IMG/VR virus record: IMGVR_UViG_3300010885_010169
Coordinates: 1-32,564 of that record
DNA from: a virus
Strand: one strand, 5' to 3'
DNA: 32,564 nt
The notes under the pieces were generated by a model. It was not told where the DNA came from. It did not search any database and was given only the letters and a program-made list of their open reading frames with translations. Of this stretch, positions 1,221 through 15,436 are shown piece after piece. Made by a program: the position numbers and the translations under genes. Within the stretch, counting starts at the first letter, position 1, and every line of letters starts with the position of its first letter.

Positions 1221-1250
1221 TTTTAGTTCCTTTTCATTCATCATAGTATA

Positions 1251-1279
1251 ATTATACCGCAGGTCTGAATTAAAGGCAA
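1251..1279 (-). promoter_or_regulatory. Sigma70-type promoter for the small genes upstream of ligase
   Basis: Minus strand TTGCCT (1279-1274), 17-bp spacer, TATAAT (1256-1251), 31 nt before the ATG at 1220. Identical over 32 bp to the promoter at 8612-8640. Confidence 0.85.
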
Positions 1280-6554: not shown

Positions 6555-6824
6555 TTAGGCTGTACGCTGTGCTGTGAAAGCAGAAGCACCTAGGATTGCG
6601 TTAGCAATGCGAACCATGCGCTTGCTTGGCTTTCCGATTTTGTACCTAGTGGTAGCAGTACCATCTGCCAACTTAGCACGATTTGCATAAATGCAATGAC
6701 CCTGTGAACGCAATTGGAAAATTGCATCGTGAGGATTCTTCAAACCAAAAGAACCAGCAATCTGGCGTGCAGTAACTTCAGCACCAGTGGACAAATAACT
6801 CAACAACTTTGCTTGTTTGGACAT
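6555..6824 (-). CDS. Small helix-turn-helix protein, 89 aa
   Basis: Reads SKQAKLLSYLSTGAEVTARQ, then IAGSFGLKNPHDAIFQLRSQ, then GHCIYANRAKLADGTATTRY. This is a winged-helix/HTH layout: recruiting helix, turn at SFGLKNP, recognition helix DAIFQLRSQG, then a beta wing ending YKIG. The C-terminus is basic. Likely DNA-binding, perhaps a regulator of the accessory cluster, but no target site is evident. The ATG at 6824 follows TATGGAGATATT and is preferred to the upstream extension, which would cover the preceding terminator. Confidence 0.72.
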   Translation of the reverse strand: MSKQAKLLSYLSTGAEVTARQIAGSFGLKNPHDAIFQLRSQGHCIYANRAKLADGTATTRYKIGKPSKRMVRIANAILGASAFTAQRTA

Positions 6825-6848
6825 AATATCTCCATAATTTACCATCAT

Positions 6849-6885
6849 TAAAAAAAGAATAGTGGGGAGATGGCGTTCCCCACTA
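6849..6885 (-). terminator. Rho-independent terminator after the 6895-7356 gene
   Basis: Minus-strand stem TAGTGGGGA / TCCCCACTA (plus-strand arms 6860-6868 and 6877-6885) followed by TTCTTTTTTT. Confidence 0.88.
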
Positions 6886-6894
6886 CTCACTAAA

Positions 6895-7356
6895 TCAAAC
6901 CTCGATTCCGTTCTCGCGAAGGATCTGGTTGAAGTCTTCTACATCTTCATCGTGAGGAGTTGACTCATCAATAATTGATTGGAGTCGTGTCTTGTCAGCG
7001 ATCGAGTCAGTAGTTTTCGCTACGGTCTTAGCCTTTGCAACTTTGACCTTAGCGACCTTCTGCTTCACAGCAGTAGTTTTCGTCTTGGTAGACGAGGATT
7101 GAGCATAGTCGCTCAATTCTTTTTCAGTTGGAAGTGGCAGTTGATACAAACCACGTTCCAACTTATTGCTCTTGAAGAGCCAGTTGGGATAACCGATCTT
7201 CACAGCACCTTTGCTACGTTTTGCAGCAAGATCTTGCGTGATGGCAACAACTTCTTTCAAAGAAATTTTACCATCTTTTTTCAGGGAAGATGTATGTTCA
7301 ATAAGAGCAACAACACACTTCTTCTGAGACATAGAGAGAGCAGAGAATTTCAACAT
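6895..7356 (-). CDS. Basic small protein sharing the CobS-like N-terminal domain
   Basis: A 153-aa protein. Residues ~1-75 contain GYPNWLFKSNKLERGLYQLP, which lines up with PRWLMVNKVGRGLYSID in the N-terminus of the neighbouring AAA+ ATPase: P-x-W-L-x(3)-N-K-x(2)-R-G-L-Y. The middle (about 85-120) is Lys/Ala/Val-rich (VKQKVAKVKVAKAKTVAK), likely a flexible nucleic-acid-binding linker. The end is acidic (STPHDEDVEDFNQILRENG). It may be an adaptor or substrate-targeting version of the ATPase domain, or a DNA-binding protein; both are inference. Start: AAGGAACTTATT precedes the ATG at 7356. A strong terminator follows. Confidence 0.75.
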   Translation of the reverse strand: MLKFSALSMSQKKCVVALIEHTSSLKKDGKISLKEVVAITQDLAAKRSKGAVKIGYPNWLFKSNKLERGLYQLPLPTEKELSDYAQSSSTKTKTTAVKQKVAKVKVAKAKTVAKTTDSIADKTRLQSIIDESTPHDEDVEDFNQILRENGIEV

Positions 7357-7385
7357 AATAAGTTCCTTTTCAAGTTTCAAATATA

Positions 7386-7414
7386 ATTATACCGCAAGAT
7401 TGAATTAAAGTCAA
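7386..7414 (-). promoter_or_regulatory. Sigma70-type promoter for the 6895-7356 gene
   Basis: Minus strand TTGACT (7414-7409), 17-bp spacer, TATAAT (7391-7386), 30 nt before the ATG. The spacer (TTAATTCAATCTTGCGG) resembles those of the promoters at 1251 and 8612. Confidence 0.85.
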
Positions 7415-7416
7415 GT

Positions 7417-8565
7417 TTAAAATGGCACCTCGTCTGTTGGATTTTGCATCGGAATTACTTCAGGTGCAACTTCAACAGCAGGGTTTGATACCTTCTCAAA
7501 CAAGTCTTGGAATGCAACTTTCGTTGCGGTGTCAAAACGATTGCAACAAAGTTCAACTGCTTTCTTGCGATCCTTGAAGATTGCAAAAGCACGAACAATG
7601 TGAATCATACGACGAGTCGTAATTGTTTCATCCACACCACCATCCTCGAAAGTGCGACGAATTGCTTCAGCCCACTTCACAAGGGTCTCTGCGAATTCTT
7701 CATCCAGACAGTTGAAGGATTCCATCAGATTCTTAATAATCTTTACTTCTATTTTCGCTGAAGGATATTCTTGTTCAAAAGTTACAGCGAATCGTTCCAA
7801 AAATGCTTCGTTCAATACGTTGGTACCGATGTAACGACCATCATCGCTACCCTTACCTTTCGTGTTCGCAGTTGCAACGATATTGAAACCAGTTGCAGGA
7901 ACGATCATCTCATTCTTGAGTTTGAAGTAGTATGGCTTACCCTCAAGGATTGGTTGCAAGCAAAGCAAAGTATTTGCTGAACCAGCGTCAATCTCATCAA
8001 GAAGCAAAGTGCAACCAGTGCGCATTGCGATCAGGACTGGACCTTCCACAATCTCTACGTTACCGTCTTCAAGGGTTTTTGAACCAACAAGTTGTTCCTC
8101 ATCGGTCATCATGTTCAGGTTAATACGAATTAGTGGACGCTTATGCTTCGCACAAATCTGTTCAACCATCGTTGACTTGCCATTCCCAGTGGGACCACTG
8201 ATATAGGCAGGGTAGAAAATCTTTGACTTGATAATATTTTCCAAGTCAGGATAGTTGCCAAAGGGAACGAAATTCGCATCTTTGACAGGAATCAATGATT
8301 CAGTATTATTAAAATCCACAGTGAATGATTCTTGGGGTTTAAGGGCAGTATTGCCAATGACCGTAGGTTTTGTACCATCGATCGAGTACAAGCCACGACC
8401 AACTTTGTTAACCATCAGCCAGCGAGGTGACTTGGATGTACCCAACTCACGCATAGTTGCAAGAAGCTGAGAATTTTCAACAGTGCCATTTGTTTTGGCA
8501 TCGGGGAACATCTCAAACAACTTTGCTTCGAAAGTCTCAACGAACGCAGTATCAGTCTTACTCAT
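7417..8565 (-). CDS. CobS/MoxR-like AAA+ ATPase
   Basis: AAA+ ATPase of 382 aa. Counting from a GTG one codon upstream of the chosen ATG, Walker A is SGPTGNGKST (124-133), Walker B is TLLLDEID (187-194), sensor 1 is ATANT (~232-236), and the arginine region is EAFLERF (~254-260). The N-terminal ~65 residues form a separate small domain ending PRWLMVNKVGRGLYSID, which is also found in the next gene's product. In MoxR/CobS systems this ATPase drives a VWA partner, here the 8686-10851 product. The last residues (VAPEVIPMQNPTDEVPF) look like an unstructured tail. Start: GGAGAAATGTG places the ATG at 8565. Own early promoter. Confidence 0.9.
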   Translation of the reverse strand: MSKTDTAFVETFEAKLFEMFPDAKTNGTVENSQLLATMRELGTSKSPRWLMVNKVGRGLYSIDGTKPTVIGNTALKPQESFTVDFNNTESLIPVKDANFVPFGNYPDLENIIKSKIFYPAYISGPTGNGKSTMVEQICAKHKRPLIRINLNMMTDEEQLVGSKTLEDGNVEIVEGPVLIAMRTGCTLLLDEIDAGSANTLLCLQPILEGKPYYFKLKNEMIVPATGFNIVATANTKGKGSDDGRYIGTNVLNEAFLERFAVTFEQEYPSAKIEVKIIKNLMESFNCLDEEFAETLVKWAEAIRRTFEDGGVDETITTRRMIHIVRAFAIFKDRKKAVELCCNRFDTATKVAFQDLFEKVSNPAVEVAPEVIPMQNPTDEVPF

Positions 8566-8611
8566 CACATTTCTCCATCATAAAATTTACAACTCAACCG
8601 AACATACACTA

Positions 8612-8640
8612 ATTATACCGCAGGTCTGAATTAAAGGCAA
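8612..8640 (-). promoter_or_regulatory. Sigma70-type promoter for the CobS/MoxR-like gene
   Basis: Minus strand TTGCCT (8640-8635), 17-bp spacer, TATAAT (8617-8612), 47 nt upstream of the ATG. A 32-bp stretch including both boxes and the spacer is identical to the promoter at 1251-1279. Confidence 0.85.
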
Positions 8641-8677
8641 GCGATATTTTGCATTCCCCTACGGACTTGAGGGGATT
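8635..8677 (-). repeat. Early punctuation module, copy 3 (between CobT-like and CobS-like genes)
   Basis: Minus strand AATCCCCTCA (8677-8668) begins a hairpin AATCCCCT / AGGGGAAT (plus-strand arms 8653-8660 and 8670-8677). It leads directly into the sigma70-type promoter at 8612-8640. Copies of the 10-mer occur at 1307-1316 and 11156-11165. Confidence 0.7.
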
Positions 8678-8685
8678 GCAAATCG

Positions 8686-10851
8686 TCAGGCTACGTAGCC
8701 GATGAACTGGTTCAGAAGGACTCGGGAAGTCTTCTTACCATTTAGTAGTTTACCGAAATTACGAGCAATTTTAGAAGCACTATCTTTCTCGCTTACCTCC
8801 ATGTTATTATTAGTTTCCACATTAAGTTTATTAGTAGGAACGATAAACAAATCGTCACGACCAGTATTCTTAAGTGAAGCGAATCCTTTATCTCTAAACT
8901 CACCACGCATAATATCAACCATATTTAAATATGAACCTTGGAATCCAGGGATATTAGTTTTTACAACTGATTCTAAAGCACGTTTATTATTTGGGGTAAT
9001 ATAAAAACCAACACTATTAATATTATAGCGATCTTTTATTAAACGCAGAATCGCCTCAGTTTGAGAAGAAGCATCTCTAAACATCTCATATGATTTCTTA
9101 GTAATAGGATCTTGTAAAAAATGTTTCTGATTAATACGTTTATAGGTTTGTTTATTTTCATCACGCTCATACGTTTGGGATTCCAAATAAGTATGACCAC
9201 AAGATAATGTACCACCTTCGCCATCAGTCAAAGTAATGAGAGAAAGTTTCTCAATATTATGTGATTTAGTAAATGTGGGGATATATGTAGCAATATAAGA
9301 TAATGCTTCACTTAATGGAGTACCACCAGTACCAAATTGTCTATCTGATCTAGTAAACCGATAAGGGTTAATCAATCGGCGAATCATAGTATTGAATTCA
9401 ACATTACTCATTTTACTTGAAAACAATTCCATCAAACCGAATGCAGTAACCGCATTGGATAATTTTTTATTCTGTTCATAAAATTCACGACGAACATTAG
9501 ATAATGCACATTCTTCTTCTTTGGAAAGAACATCGTATTGAGTGGTAAACGCAAATACCTGATAAGGAATTTGTGCACGTTGGCAGAACATGGCAAGGTT
9601 AATAACCTGTTGCACAGTTTCTCTCAATACGTGATCCATTGATCCCGACCAGTCAAGTAAGAAAATCATTCCATGGTTCTTACCGATAGGCAAAGTAGTT
9701 ACACGTTTGAACAAATCGTCATTGAGTTTATACGCCCAGACTTTCTTCATATCGAGTGAACCGATCTTAGAAGTTTGAGCACGTTTATAAAGAGTTGCAC
9801 TCTTACGCATCTCAAATTCTTTGACCAGATAATTAACAACACGAGAAGAATCTGTTTTGAACTGAACTAATTCTTTCAAGTCATATTCAGTCAATTCATC
9901 TTCAATTGATACAGTACCTGCAATAACTTTCTTGTATGAAATAATGGGGTTGAAAGTAAACTTCTCATCCAGATTGTAGTAATTGTAAACAGTTGATTCA
10001 TCGGCTAGTTCTTCAAGTTTCTTGGAGAACATTTCCTCAGTCTTCGATTCAAGTTGTTGTTCCAACTCAGCTTCTTCAGCTTCTTGTTTGTCTTCACTAC
10101 GTCCACCTGCTCCACGTTTTTCCCGTTGATCTTTAAAATCATCTTCTTCATCTTCTAGACCATCTTCATCAAAGTCATCATCGTCATAATCTGATTCACC
10201 ATCGATGTCGTCATCGTCATAACCATATTCTTCGTCTTCGAGATCCTCATCATCATCTTGTTCTTCATGATCCTGAGAGATTTTCTCTTTGCGTTTCTTA
10301 ACTTGGTCTTTACTGAATTCGTAAATTTCTTGAGCCAGCTGGATTACGTCGTCAACAGTCTCAGTCTTTTCTGCACGAACAACGAATGGTTTTTCCTCAG
10401 ATGTAAATTTTACACCGCAGTTGAAACCAGCTTTGAAGTAGAGATTGATTTTATCAATGAGAATCAAAGCATCCATTGAGGGGATCTTTGATACACCAAA
10501 GAAGTCGCGATCGTTGAGTTGTTTGTATCCTTCGTTCATGGTCTTGCGCAGACCTGGATATTTGCGTTTGATAAGTTTCTCGATACGCACATCCTCGATC
10601 ACGTTGAGGTATTGCATGATACGACGATTGTCATCGATCGGCTTGAGGTATTCTTCGTCAGTGTAAAGTGCGTGACCGACTTCATGACCCACCAACATTT
10701 CTTCGACCTCGGGTGTCATATCCTTCCACTGGGGCAGGGTCAACACACGTGACTTGATGTCAAACGATGCGGTGCGTGTACGATTGCGCACCACAGTGAT
10801 ATTTTCCGTAGCCAGAAGTTTGGCTCCGAGGTCAGTTGCATTCAGTTTCAT
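8686..10851 (-). CDS. CobT-like VWA protein with N-terminal HExxH metallopeptidase motif
   Basis: A 721-aa protein of three parts. The N-terminus has HEVGH at 56-60 in EMLVGHEVGHALYT, followed by NVIEDVRIE at 83-91, whose Glu/Asp could complete a zinc site. Residues ~190-265 are extremely acidic (long Asp/Glu runs). The C-terminus is a von Willebrand A domain with an intact metal site: DWSGS (D400, S402, S404), GTGGTPL (T511) and LTDGEG (D543). VWA proteins paired with MoxR/CobS-type AAA+ ATPases form chelatase- or remodelling-type complexes, and the matching ATPase is the next gene. Phage annotations usually say 'cobalt chelatase CobT', but true metal chelation is not shown by sequence. Start: AAGGAAC upstream, stop-start overlap with the 75-aa gene. 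Confidence 0.88.
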   Translation of the reverse strand: MKLNATDLGAKLLATENITVVRNRTRTASFDIKSRVLTLPQWKDMTPEVEEMLVGHEVGHALYTDEEYLKPIDDNRRIMQYLNVIEDVRIEKLIKRKYPGLRKTMNEGYKQLNDRDFFGVSKIPSMDALILIDKINLYFKAGFNCGVKFTSEEKPFVVRAEKTETVDDVIQLAQEIYEFSKDQVKKRKEKISQDHEEQDDDEDLEDEEYGYDDDDIDGESDYDDDDFDEDGLEDEEDDFKDQREKRGAGGRSEDKQEAEEAELEQQLESKTEEMFSKKLEELADESTVYNYYNLDEKFTFNPIISYKKVIAGTVSIEDELTEYDLKELVQFKTDSSRVVNYLVKEFEMRKSATLYKRAQTSKIGSLDMKKVWAYKLNDDLFKRVTTLPIGKNHGMIFLLDWSGSMDHVLRETVQQVINLAMFCQRAQIPYQVFAFTTQYDVLSKEEECALSNVRREFYEQNKKLSNAVTAFGLMELFSSKMSNVEFNTMIRRLINPYRFTRSDRQFGTGGTPLSEALSYIATYIPTFTKSHNIEKLSLITLTDGEGGTLSCGHTYLESQTYERDENKQTYKRINQKHFLQDPITKKSYEMFRDASSQTEAILRLIKDRYNINSVGFYITPNNKRALESVVKTNIPGFQGSYLNMVDIMRGEFRDKGFASLKNTGRDDLFIVPTNKLNVETNNNMEVSEKDSASKIARNFGKLLNGKKTSRVLLNQFIGYVA

Positions 10852-11078
10852 TACAAAGTTCCTTCTTCAATACTATAATTATACGTCAAGTCTGAATTAA
10901 AGGCAAGCGATTTTTGTGGGAATGCAAGATCGTGTTCGTACGCAGTCAAGAGAGTCTCCAGAAGTGAACGATCCTTGAGGGTCAGGTCGAAGTTCCAAGC
11001 ACTTTCCTCAACTTGGTCTTGCAACCCATATTGATAGGCTAACTCGGCTAGTTCAAAGTCCGTAAAATCATCCCACAT
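10851..11078 (-). CDS. Small acidic protein, 75 aa
   Basis: Starts MWDDFTDFELAELAYQYGLQ, preceded by AAAAAGGACTAAAA. It is acidic and helical at the N-terminus. No family recognised. The last ~17 codons run through a second sigma70-type promoter (10878-10906) and the stop overlaps the start of the CobT-like gene (TAATG). The C-terminal residues (LAFNSDLTYNYSIEEGTL) are therefore partly dictated by promoter sequence and are likely dispensable. It is transcribed with, and coupled to, the HExxH/VWA gene. Confidence 0.7.
   Translation of the reverse strand: MWDDFTDFELAELAYQYGLQDQVEESAWNFDLTLKDRSLLETLLTAYEHDLAFPQKSLAFNSDLTYNYSIEEGTL
10878..10906 (-). promoter_or_regulatory. Sigma70-type promoter inside a coding sequence, driving the CobT-like gene
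   Basis: Minus strand TTGCCT (10906-10901), 17-bp spacer, TATAAT (10883-10878), 27 nt before the ATG at 10851. Most of its spacer matches those of the promoters at 1251 and 8612 (TTTAATTCAGAC). It lies within the 3' end of the 75-aa gene. Confidence 0.8.
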
Positions 11079-13224: not shown

Positions 13225-14276
13225 ACCACCTCTACGTTAACTGCCTCTGTATAAAGAGATTTCATAAAATTCTTAACCTGTTCTTTATCAACATCAGTCT
13301 CGACTGAATCGATGTAATTCGATAAGACAGATAATGTATCTTCAAGATTGATTTCCTCACTAACCTCTCCATCTTCAAACTCAGAGAGATCTTCAACAAT
13401 CTTAATTTCATAACAGCCTTTAGTATACAGCTTTTGAATAAATTTATCAAATTTATAGTAGTCAGTTTTGTTTACAACAATCAGCTTTACGTATTTGCCA
13501 TTTAAGTCGAAGGCATCAAGATCGATGGGCTCAATTTCTTTGTCGTCGTATTCGAGTCTTGTAAACATTGTATAAGGATTACTAATGAATTCGAGTTCTC
13601 TTGTTGAGAGATCGAACAGGTGAAATCCTCGGGGATCGTTAAAGTCCTGCCAAGTAAGTTCGTATGGATTGCCGAGATAATAAATGTGCTTGTCATCAGA
13701 GCGATGGTGGTAGTGGCCACTAAAAACAAGATCAAACTTATTAAAAATTTCTTTAGAAAACCCATCATGAGATTCCATCCCTCTATACATTGAGAAGCCA
13801 GCTATCTCAAAATGCCCCATGCAAATTTCAGCTTCAGTTGAATTAATAGTATTAATACTATCCGTATAATTCTCGGCACATATCCAAGGAACCATACAGA
13901 TTTTAGTATCATCGATAATGATATCTTTTGGGCTATCGATTACATTAATGTTTAAATATTCTTTTAGCAATAAGTCTGGAGAGTTTACGTCATTAGTGTT
14001 CTTATAGTAAGTGTCATGATTCCCAGCCAGCATATGAACGCTGATACCCATGGCTTCCAGTTTATCAAAGAACATTTCTTTGGCTCTTTGGAGAGAGTAG
14101 AAATTAACATACTTGCGTCTATCAAAGGTGTCACCAAGTATAAGAACAGTAGTGATCCCATGAAGTTCAAGAGCAGGAAAGAAAGTATTGTCGTAAAACT
14201 TTTGAAAGAAATCTAGAAAGGCTATACTATCATTTCGAGCACCGAAATGCTGATCAGTGATAATTGCTACCTTCAT
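13221..14276 (-). CDS. 47: gp47-like recombination nuclease subunit (Mre11/SbcD family)
   Basis: Forms the gp46-gp47 complex that resects DNA ends for recombination-dependent replication and host DNA degradation. Calcineurin-type phosphoesterase motifs are complete: D8-x-H10 (TDQHFGA), GDTFDRR with D49, GNHD with N86/H87, GHFE with H155 and GHYHH at 187-191. At 351 aa it is close to T4 gp47 (339). The start overlaps the previous stop. It is separated from gene 46 by one small gene with overlapping junctions on both sides. Confidence 0.95.
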   Translation of the reverse strand: MKVAIITDQHFGARNDSIAFLDFFQKFYDNTFFPALELHGITTVLILGDTFDRRKYVNFYSLQRAKEMFFDKLEAMGISVHMLAGNHDTYYKNTNDVNSPDLLLKEYLNINVIDSPKDIIIDDTKICMVPWICAENYTDSINTINSTEAEICMGHFEIAGFSMYRGMESHDGFSKEIFNKFDLVFSGHYHHRSDDKHIYYLGNPYELTWQDFNDPRGFHLFDLSTRELEFISNPYTMFTRLEYDDKEIEPIDLDAFDLNGKYVKLIVVNKTDYYKFDKFIQKLYTKGCYEIKIVEDLSEFEDGEVSEEINLEDTLSVLSNYIDSVETDVDKEQVKNFMKSLYTEAVNVEVV

Positions 14277-15436
14277 TATACGAAGCCCATCTTTCTTTCC
14301 TTTGGTTTGTTAATTTGTTTGTTAAAGATTTCAGCGATAGACCATTTAGGTTTGATGCCATCAAGTTTAACATCTAATTTCTTTGCTAGTTTTGCAGCGT
14401 CTTCTTGTGTGAGTTCATCGAACGTAAGGATGTCAAAGCAACGACCTGGACGAACCAAAGCAGAATCGATATCACGGATAGATGGTAGATTGGTAGAGAA
14501 AATCATTTTCTTACCTTTCGTTGTAACAAGACCATCACCTACATTTAGGAAACGATGCATCATTGTATTTCCTTCACTACGAGACTTAAGAAATGCGTCA
14601 CTGTCCTCGAGAATCATAATACTTTCATCACCCTCAATAAAACGAGCAAAGAAACCATCCTTCTCAAGAATTTGAGAATCATAAGAAACGATAGCGGAAG
14701 AATTTGTAGATGCAAGTAGACCACGGATGAAAGTAGTCTTACCAGTTCCAGGTGGACCGATCAACAAAAGAATATTTGCAGATGAAGCCATGTAGCGTTC
14801 ATAGTAAGACTCTAGAGATTCACCATTTAAGAAAGGATACATTTCTTCAACTGGGAGACGATCACGATTTAGGGGTACGTTGACAGAATTACCATCAGCA
14901 CCATAAACCCATTCAATGTGAGAAGTTACAATGTCAAACTGGTCTTCAACAAGATCAATGATAGAATCACAATACTCAGCGTCACCAAACGCACGAACAG
15001 TTGTAGTATTGCTATCGACATCGAATCTAATATAGTTATCAGTTTTGGTATCAATAACAAATCCATTTGAGGAATTGCCTTGCACAAAAAGATAATCTTG
15101 GAAATAACTCTCAGCCCATTCTGCCCAGTGAGCACGATTGCAGAGAACAGTGGTTTGACGATGTACGGTATTTTTACCACCATCAACACGTCGCTTTAAA
15201 ACTTCTGATGTAAATAAGTCATCAATATCAGAAACACCTAAAAATATTTGTTCGTTGTTTTCCATAGTATTTTTCAAGTTAAATTGGTTATCGAAAGCAT
15301 CAAATGTAAATCTTCGTAAAGTTCTTTTTGAAGTTCGTCTTTTACTTTTAGATTTAAGACTTCTATATCTACGCACGTCTTCCCTCACAGATCTGAGGAA
15401 ATCGCCAAGATTATCGTAGTTCCTCGTTATTGTCAT
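14276..15436 (-). CDS. AAA+ ATPase between gp55 and gp47
   Basis: AAA+ protein with a divergent N-terminal ~215 residues and a C-terminal ATPase. Walker A is GPPGTGKTT (227-235), Walker B is IMILEDSD (273-280) with Glu-Asp instead of the usual Asp-Glu, sensor 1 is FSTN (~313-316) and the arginine pair is RPGR (329-332), as in Bcs1/proteasome-type ATPases. Function unknown; remodelling of a replication or recombination complex is inferred from its place between genes 55 and 47. The start is uncertain: the ATG at 15436 overlaps gp55 by 26 nt, and an internal ATG at 15265 would shorten the basic N-terminus by 57 residues. The stop overlaps the gp47 start (TAATG). Confidence 0.85.
   Translation of the reverse strand: MTITRNYDNLGDFLRSVREDVRRYRSLKSKSKRRTSKRTLRRFTFDAFDNQFNLKNTMENNEQIFLGVSDIDDLFTSEVLKRRVDGGKNTVHRQTTVLCNRAHWAEWAESYFQDYLFVQGNSSNGFVIDTKTDNYIRFDVDSNTTTVRAFGDAEYCDSIIDLVEDQFDIVTSHIEWVYGADGNSVNVPLNRDRLPVEEMYPFLNGESLESYYERYMASSANILLLIGPPGTGKTTFIRGLLASTNSSAIVSYDSQILEKDGFFARFIEGDESIMILEDSDAFLKSRSEGNTMMHRFLNVGDGLVTTKGKKMIFSTNLPSIRDIDSALVRPGRCFDILTFDELTQEDAAKLAKKLDVKLDGIKPKWSIAEIFNKQINKPKERKMGFV

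Follow-up and report, generated by a model that had tools for sequence, protein, structure and literature searches.

In the viral DNA analysed here (the window: the whole 32,564-nucleotide stretch of IMG/VR record IMGVR_UViG_3300010885_010169), two adjacent genes probably encode an ATP-driven protein-remodelling machine of the MoxR AAA+/VWA type, whose VWA partner carries a zincin-like N-domain with an HExxH motif. The AAA+ clade, the pairing of the genes, the VWA fold and the conserved N-domain all favour such a remodelling or processing machine over a cobaltochelatase, in line with the preliminary description of this locus. The pair as such is already known: it is annotated in phages, and PMC7824862 describes, in group 2.2 jumbo phages, a MoxR AAA+ protein whose vWA cochaperone has a metallopeptidase domain joined to its N-terminus.

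Gene order, promoters and neighbourhood

The genes under study were all recovered as minus-strand ORFs at the place originally noted, together with a small upstream ORF and the following signals.

8686..10851, minus strand: VWA partner protein (PHROG 459, 'peptidase'), 721 aa, ATG start
7417..8565, minus strand: AAA+ ATPase of the MoxR/CobS/NorQ/CbbQ clade (PHROG 249), 382 aa from the ATG at 8565
6895..7356, minus strand: third protein, 153 aa from the ATG at 7356
10851..11078, minus strand: 75-aa ORF upstream of the VWA gene, its stop codon overlapping the VWA start
10876..10906, minus strand: sigma70-type promoter of the VWA gene, TTGCCT-17-TATAAT, inside the end of the 75-aa ORF
8610..8640, minus strand: sigma70-type promoter of the ATPase gene, TTGCCT-17-TATAAT
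7384..7414, minus strand: sigma70-type promoter of the third gene, TTGACT-17-TATAAT
6857..6888, minus strand: intrinsic-terminator-like stem of 12 pairs with a T-run, directly after the third gene

The ATPase ORF extends over 7417-8568, with the in-frame ATG at 8565 as the likelier start; that of the third protein covers 6895-7380 and more likely begins at the ATG at 7356, which is preceded by an AAGGA-like site. The 75-aa ORF encodes a small protein conserved in many relatives and is tied to the pair by position only. The locus does lie between genes 46 and 45, as first described, though not as an insertion, since gp46-VWA-AAA-gp45 is the usual order in most relatives; an insertion unique to this phage is ruled out by the same conservation.

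Each of the three genes is preceded by its own near-consensus sigma70-type site, within a 31-base unit that contains an exact TATAAT, recurs once more at 1249-1279 and is expected zero times in shuffled sequence. Promoter-like sites also stand upstream of the same genes in relatives. These sites bear out the early-type promoters proposed for all three genes, and the cyanophage late motif (PMC2984593) was absent near them. A literature search on cyanophage transcription timing yielded no paper that also names cobS, and no experimental work on a phage member of the family came to light.

Both proteins match their PHROG families over the full length (E 1e-181 for the VWA protein against PHROG 459, 5e-104 for the ATPase against PHROG 249) and thus correspond to the 'cobS-peptidase' pair, which is core in most T4-like cyanophages, shares the gp46-VWA-AAA-gp45 order and is annotated in hundreds of phages as 'porphyrin biosynthesis/CobS' and 'peptidase'. 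In 99 of 115 loci the VWA gene is followed within 3 kb by the AAA+ gene, and cyanophage record counts are equal for the two proteins (365/61/24). DNA-replication genes surround the pair in three phage lineages: it sits at gp46/gp45 in T4-like phages, near a DNA ligase and/or a DnaE-type polymerase in SSU5, RHEph10, nickie and ANB28, and near a primase, a helicase and a polymerase in ICP2. Little or no replication neighbourhood is annotated around it in Woes, TIN4 and CRP-810, and replication genes of phages tend to be clustered in any case. According to PMC10665884, cobS is missing from T4-like cyanophages of cluster C, so not every T4-like phage needs the pair to replicate. A related ATPase is also encoded by Staphylococcus phage GH15, but the protein encoded downstream of it shows neither MIDAS nor HExxH motifs, and GH15 was therefore left out of the pair count.

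Promoters and context also bear on a virion-assembly chaperone that would process structural proteins by peptidolysis, as proposed for the jumbo-phage pair. The published proposal concerns the same domain architecture, and that source further cites an AAA+/VWA pair in archaeal virus tail assembly (PMC7824862). However, sigma70-type promoters, the missing late motif and a position among replication genes make this role unlikely here, even if late use of the pair is conceivable because T4-like early genes can be needed late too. The same early-type promoters and replication context in three lineages lead us to suggest, more tentatively, that the machine's target is a replication- or recombination-related protein rather than a component of corrin metabolism.

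The ATPase and its HExxH-VWA partner

The ATPase comprises an N-domain (about residues 1-66), a Walker A motif at 125-132 (GPTGNGKS, with K131) and a Walker B motif at 188-192 (LLLDE). Both motifs are complete, as anticipated, and G128, K131, D191, E192 and R259 do not vary among 21 homologues. Its AAA_5-type core (65.1 bits against a cut-off of 22, E 9e-18), together with the Walker motifs and a CbbQ/NorQ-type C-terminal region (CbbQ_C, 25.9 bits, above the cut-off of 20.6), places it in the MoxR class. Profile matches to solved structures were led by midasin (E 1e-76), followed by CobS (7e-39) and by CbbQ and NorQ (down to 9e-16).

The partner protein consists of an N-domain (1-198), an acidic linker (about 199-253), a helical region (254-360) and a VWA domain (about 390-721). 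The linker, already noted as very acidic, is predicted to be disordered (pLDDT about 40). The MIDAS residues D400, S402, S404, T511 and D543 are the same in all of 21 homologues, whose identity goes down to 21%, and the metal-site residues originally quoted (DWSGS, T511, D543) are therefore correct. In a wider set, D400, S402 and S404 occur in 131/131 sequences, D543 in 130/131 and T511 in 125/131 (S in two, E in three and a gap in one). Among solved structures, the predicted VWA domain, which contains a hairpin insert at about 559-580, came closest to NorD as seen bound to NorQ (9qh6_G; Z 16.1, rmsd 6.8 over 255 residues), alongside the MDN1 MIDAS domain (Z 15.6, rmsd 3.6 over 223 residues). 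At the sequence level, neither the single VWA protein nor a profile built on it retrieved a relative from the PDB.

Within the N-domain, the HEVGH and neighbouring NVIEDVRIE motifs pointed out earlier map to residues 56-60 and 83-91. H56, E57, H60, N83, E86, D87 and R89 are invariant in the same 21 homologues, and HExxH together with NxxEDxR is found in 29 of 29 complete phage homologues of an unbiased set, from which loci L062-L140, fetched partly with the peptide HEVGHAL, were excluded. At this composition, chance would yield about 0.003 HExxH motifs in 130 residues; the observed figure is 29/29 at one place. Carriers include phages SSU5, RHEph10, CMS-2020a, OC, CRP-810, ICP2, Woes and TIN4; nickie and ANB28 keep the pair and have lost the motif, so catalysis is not needed everywhere. 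The domain is predicted (pLDDT about 87-95) to run strand-strand-strand-helix-helix, the first helix bearing HExxH and the second NxxEDxRIE (that is, ExxRxE). This order fits a zincin-like layout, and the downstream residue conserved in all 29 homologues, E86, is a candidate third zinc ligand; the N-domain is probably zincin-like. Searched within the whole protein, it resembled no PDB or Pfam family with a useful score, and the Pfam putative metallopeptidase family DUF2201_N was matched in only 1 of 66 members (E 0.003). DUF2201_N proteins were too rare in the sampled class to provide comparison sequences. HExxH as a general trait of MoxR VWA partners was rejected, the motif being absent from 26 CobT proteins and from one NorD-like neighbour.

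These features weigh on the published view, held for cyanophages and haloarchaeal viruses, that the pair represents CobS and CobT subunits hijacking host CobN to raise cobalamin output. In its support, few solved structures are closer to the ATPase than CobS, the ExxRxE helix of the CobT N-domain aligns weakly with the phage helix (P 2e-4), and PMC8651126 argues for viral CobST and deems the peptidase label mistaken. On the other hand, the ATPase scores 81.6 bits against the 558.55 cut-off of the CobS equivalog model TIGR01650, and the window VWA protein has no CobT match in Pfam or NCBIfam up to E 1. PF06213 (CobT) likewise found nothing in S-PM2 or HTVC008M, a phage VWA profile failed to pick up CobT in any of 190 genomes from a class where CobT is common, and hhalign against 19 CobT proteins returned weak local similarity. 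HExxH occurs in 0/26 alphaproteobacterial CobT proteins, in contrast to its constancy in the phage family. CobN was detected in 0/22 phage records searched, although host CobN could substitute, so that its absence alone is not decisive. Moreover, phages of Pelagibacter and E. coli carry close pairs, and these hosts are generally considered unable to synthesise the corrin ring de novo. We consequently regard this role as very improbable, and the original view of the locus as less like a plain cobalt chelatase is upheld.

Proposed action and the third protein

By analogy with NorQ/NorD, for which twisting is the mechanistic precedent (PMC13036017; PMC9976466), six AAA+ subunits of the favoured remodelling machine would form a ring on which the VWA domain docks with an extension in the pore. 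ATP hydrolysis would then turn the VWA domain against the N-domain, stretching the acidic linker. A target gripped by the N-domain on one side and the MIDAS site on the other could thereby be unfolded, and perhaps also cleaved or loaded with metal at the putative zinc site. Alternatively, the zinc site might be structural or a metal shuttle and no peptidase, the pair metal-loading or reactivating a phage or host metalloenzyme as NorQD does with nitric oxide reductase. NorQD inserts iron (PMC13036017), NorD is the closest solved VWA protein, and some family members dispense with HExxH while keeping the pair. Yet NorD and CobT serve metal insertion without HExxH, which is strictly kept in the phage family (29/29), and we hold this alternative to be credible but doubtful.

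The third protein combines a winged-helix-like N-domain, a Lys-rich disordered linker and a conserved C-terminal peptide, EDFNxILRxNGIxV. Its N-domain is related to that of the ATPase (profile E 1e-8), which makes the protein a clade-specific free copy of that domain; the adaptor-like character first ascribed to it is plausible for this reason. Its probable role is that of an adaptor, decoy or regulator that engages the same target or partner. Foldseek gave nothing significant: winged-helix domains featured among the best rows, with E values of 1 or more (VIA Z <=4.2), and tblastn found no copy in the named phages.

Reported as one of the commonest auxiliary metabolic genes of marine viruses, cobS underlies claims that phages boost host B12. 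Our data suggest that the T4-like pair remodels proteins and bears a zinc-protease-like arm, so these metabolic inferences may be wrong; the 'peptidase' label, once called a mistake, may be the better one. We would venture, as a bolder and doubtful possibility, that phage 'cobST' are no B12 genes at all: they would encode a metalloprotease or remodeller, driven by ATP and working at the replication machinery of phage or host, and one T4-like clade would have split off the ATPase N-domain as a free, redirecting adaptor. A related gene pair in coliphage PhiR41_1 (recorded host E. coli K-12) makes the question testable.

Comparison with known systems

The cyanophage cobS/'peptidase' genes are the orthologous pair at the same place between gp46 and gp45, with identities to the window proteins of about 33% (VWA) and 44-50% (ATPase); the third protein is present in the window and absent from the named phages searched. 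In the jumbo-phage system (PMC7824862), the AAA+ gene likewise adjoins one for a VWA protein that begins with a metallopeptidase-like domain; virion assembly is the role proposed there, the available text mentions no free N-domain protein, and the likeness is one of architecture. Aerobic cobaltochelatase CobS/CobT shares the AAA+ protein with a VWA partner, the MIDAS and a weakly similar ExxRxE helix, whereas the phage proteins fall under the family cut-offs, CobT lacks HExxH and the phage records searched contain no CobN. NorQ/NorD belongs to the same AAA+ clade, has the same layout of N-domain, disordered linker and VWA domain, and provides the best VWA structural match; it differs in that the examined NorD-like protein lacks HExxH, conservation is reportedly lacking in the published N-domain and the target is a host membrane enzyme. 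Finally, midasin (Rea1/MDN1) offers in its AAA+ modules the strongest sequence match to a solved structure, along with a similar MIDAS domain, but is a single giant eukaryotic protein for ribosome assembly and not a two-gene pair.

A conserved gene pair between gp46 and gp45

Among the T4-like genes of this 32.6-kb T4-like phage fragment (IMG/VR), we identified gp46, gp47, a DNA helicase, gp44, gp45, a RegA-type repressor, the major head protein, a scaffold protein and a terminase. Between gp46 and gp45 lie the following features:

8686-10851, minus strand: VWA protein
7417-8568 (ATG at 8565), minus strand: AAA+ ATPase
6895-7380 (ATG at 7356), minus strand: third protein
6555-6890, minus strand: small winged-helix protein (HTH_39)
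minus strand: 75-aa ORF
minus strand: dATP/dGTP-pyrophosphohydrolase-like protein

The HTH_39 gene is conserved directly after the third protein and is flanked on both sides by terminator-like stems. Directly upstream of gp47, a 386-aa protein of unknown function (PHROG 14322) is encoded at 14276-15436.

The preliminary description had regarded the VWA, ATPase and third genes as inserted between genes 46 and 45. Their position held, but an insertion of the VWA-ATPase pair is ruled out by an old gp46-VWA-AAA-gp45 arrangement common to S-PM2, P-HM1, S-CAM1, an ACG-2014f isolate, Ochrobactrum phage OC and ~45 IMG/VR relatives, with additional genes in some of them. A 2010 comparison of 16 T4-like cyanophages placed cobS among their core genes (PMC3037559); cluster C cyanophages are reported exceptions without it (PMC10665884). 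Equal record numbers for both proteins in named cyanophages (365 + 61 + 24) suggest strict co-occurrence, as judged from record totals rather than record-by-record overlap. Of 115 loci, 99 have the ATPase gene no more than 3 kb behind the VWA gene, and in L152 and L153 it comes first. In one subclade (L104, L111, L090, L136, L097, L122, L098, L129), the VWA gene comes after 5'-nuclease-like genes and the ATPase gene is not adjacent; a search of four contigs located it away from the VWA gene on one of them. A phage-type pair also occurs on a 188-kb contig (L150) assigned to the cultured bacterium Nonlabens xiamenensis, possibly a co-sequenced phage.

In T4-like phages the pair adjoins gp46/gp45; SSU5, RHEph10, nickie and ANB28 have a DNA ligase and/or a DnaE-type polymerase next to it, and ICP2 has primase, helicase and polymerase there. 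No clear replication neighbourhood was seen around it in Woes, TIN4 and CRP-810. As a functional hint this is no more than suggestive, because phage replication genes cluster.

That each gene has its own sigma70-type promoter, as proposed from the sequence, was borne out by a 31-base unit, TTGMCTTTAATTCANNCYTGNNGTATAATTA, present in four copies in the window and in none of 100 shuffles:

10876-10906, minus strand: just upstream of the VWA gene
8610-8640, minus strand: just upstream of the ATPase gene
7384-7414, minus strand: just upstream of the third gene
1249-1279, minus strand: outside this cluster

Beyond the sigma70 hexamers, the copies are near-identical in the spacer too. Among relatives, sites with at least 10 of 12 promoter bases were found upstream of the ATPase gene in 39/43, the third gene in 37/48 and the VWA gene in 10/33, versus 7% of random stretches. 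Early expression of the cluster is likely because these promoters are present, the cyanophage late motif TATAAATA was searched for and not found near the three genes, and early genes of cyanomyoviruses have been credited with sigma70-type sites (PMC2984593).

The HExxH motif and the CobT question

The motifs originally reported were recovered at the quoted residues of both proteins. H56, E57 and H60, together with N83, E86, D87, R89 and all five MIDAS residues, were invariant among 21 homologues of the VWA protein, down to 21% identity. Both HExxH and NxxEDxR[IL][ED] occurred in 29/29 complete proteins of an unbiased set (loci fetched via the third protein, other VWA peptides or tblastn), chance expectation being ~0.003 HExxH per protein in the N-terminal stretch concerned. 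In a larger set, partly fetched with the HExxH-containing peptide HEVGHAL, only the protein of phage nickie lacked HExxH among those extending that far. The 'CobT' of SSU5, CMS-2020a, RHEph10, OC, CRP-810, ICP2, Woes and TIN4 carries HExxH at residues 64-98, and those of nickie (L059:2439-4523) and ANB28 (L204:5992-7977) have lost it (SEISK and REVST instead) while keeping the VWA domain and ATPase partner.

An AlphaFold2 model (66 sequences; mean pLDDT 82.6) predicted that the N-domain combines three short strands with one helix bearing HEVGH (47-63) and another bearing NVIEDVRIE (76-97), in an order matching that of zincins. The linker behind it is predicted to be disordered and leads into a helical region, after which comes the VWA domain. 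This last domain matched NorD in the NorQ complex (Z 16.1, rmsd 6.8 over 255 residues) and the human MDN1 MIDAS (Z 15.6, rmsd 3.6 over 223). From this order of elements we infer a putative working zinc site in the N-domain.

HExxH was absent from all 26 alphaproteobacterial CobT proteins compared, many of which have RHHD...H and EQARxEA at the corresponding place, and from the one NorD-like neighbour of a NorQ-type gene examined. Whole-protein alignment with CobT was weak, and when just the two helical motifs were compared as profiles, the second helix alone scored (P 2e-4). These data would fit a possible distant common N-domain that lacks the canonical site in CobT. CobN was found in 0/22 phage records searched. 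These data therefore lend no support to the published view of phage cobT as 'mistakenly annotated as a peptidase' (PMC8651126), peptidase activity itself being putative.

The ATPase and the third protein

The ATPase matched both Pfam AAA_5 and CbbQ_C, and a profile of 21 phage sequences retrieved midasin, CobS, CbbQ and NorQ among solved structures. Among MoxR-class AAA+ proteins it is a member of the CobS/NorQ/CbbQ branch and is not CobS itself, whose equivalog cut-off it misses by a large margin. ATPase N-termini vary: those of cyanophages differ from that in the window and look HTH-like by eye, and OC lacks the domain. In SSU5-type ATPases (L058:4494-5729, L199:6468-7703), a possible N-terminal zinc finger, CKWCGKSFHY...H...C, takes the place of the winged-helix-like domain.

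In one clade, which a first scan put at 44 loci, the third gene comes immediately after the ATPase gene, and a profile search detected its product in none of seven named phages. Its N-domain resembles that of the ATPase (pairwise E 1e-4; profile-profile E 1e-8, probability 96%, versus a best E of 0.006 for 30 column-shuffled controls). The structural model is confident for residues 1-92 only, with winged-helix-like order there, and gave no significant match to solved folds. After that region the protein continues through a Lys-rich linker into a conserved tail, D-x-EDFNxILRxNGI. A free ~107-aa protein (L152:1968-2291), 43% identical to the N-domain of a nearby ATPase (L152:2957-4408; E 9e-14), shows that a second, distant lineage has a free N-domain copy. 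The third protein may act as an adaptor, decoy or regulator.

Comparison with known systems

Cyanophage genes of the pair already bear the labels 'cobS' and 'peptidase', and PMC7824862 describes a jumbo-phage MoxR AAA+ with a vWA-metallopeptidase partner, for which a role in virion assembly is proposed. New relative to the literature searched are the explicit failure of cobaltochelatase tests, the HExxH contrast between phage proteins and CobT/NorD, the free N-domain protein, and a replication neighbourhood that three lineages have in common.

In NorQ/NorD, a VWA finger sits in the AAA+ pore, and ATP turns the VWA domain against the N-domain, so that the linker is stretched and the target opened (PMC13036017; PMC9976466). 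On this template, the finger of the phage partner would enter the pore, and ATP-driven rotation of its VWA domain against the N-domain would stretch the linker and open a target, which might then be cut, metal-loaded or merely remodelled. True peptidase activity is less likely than not, commanding roughly half the confidence we place in the machine class as such. The phage partner shares the three-part layout of NorD but has a zincin-like N-domain where NorD has its own. We moderately favour a NorQ/NorD-type remodelling machine with a zincin-like partner N-domain.
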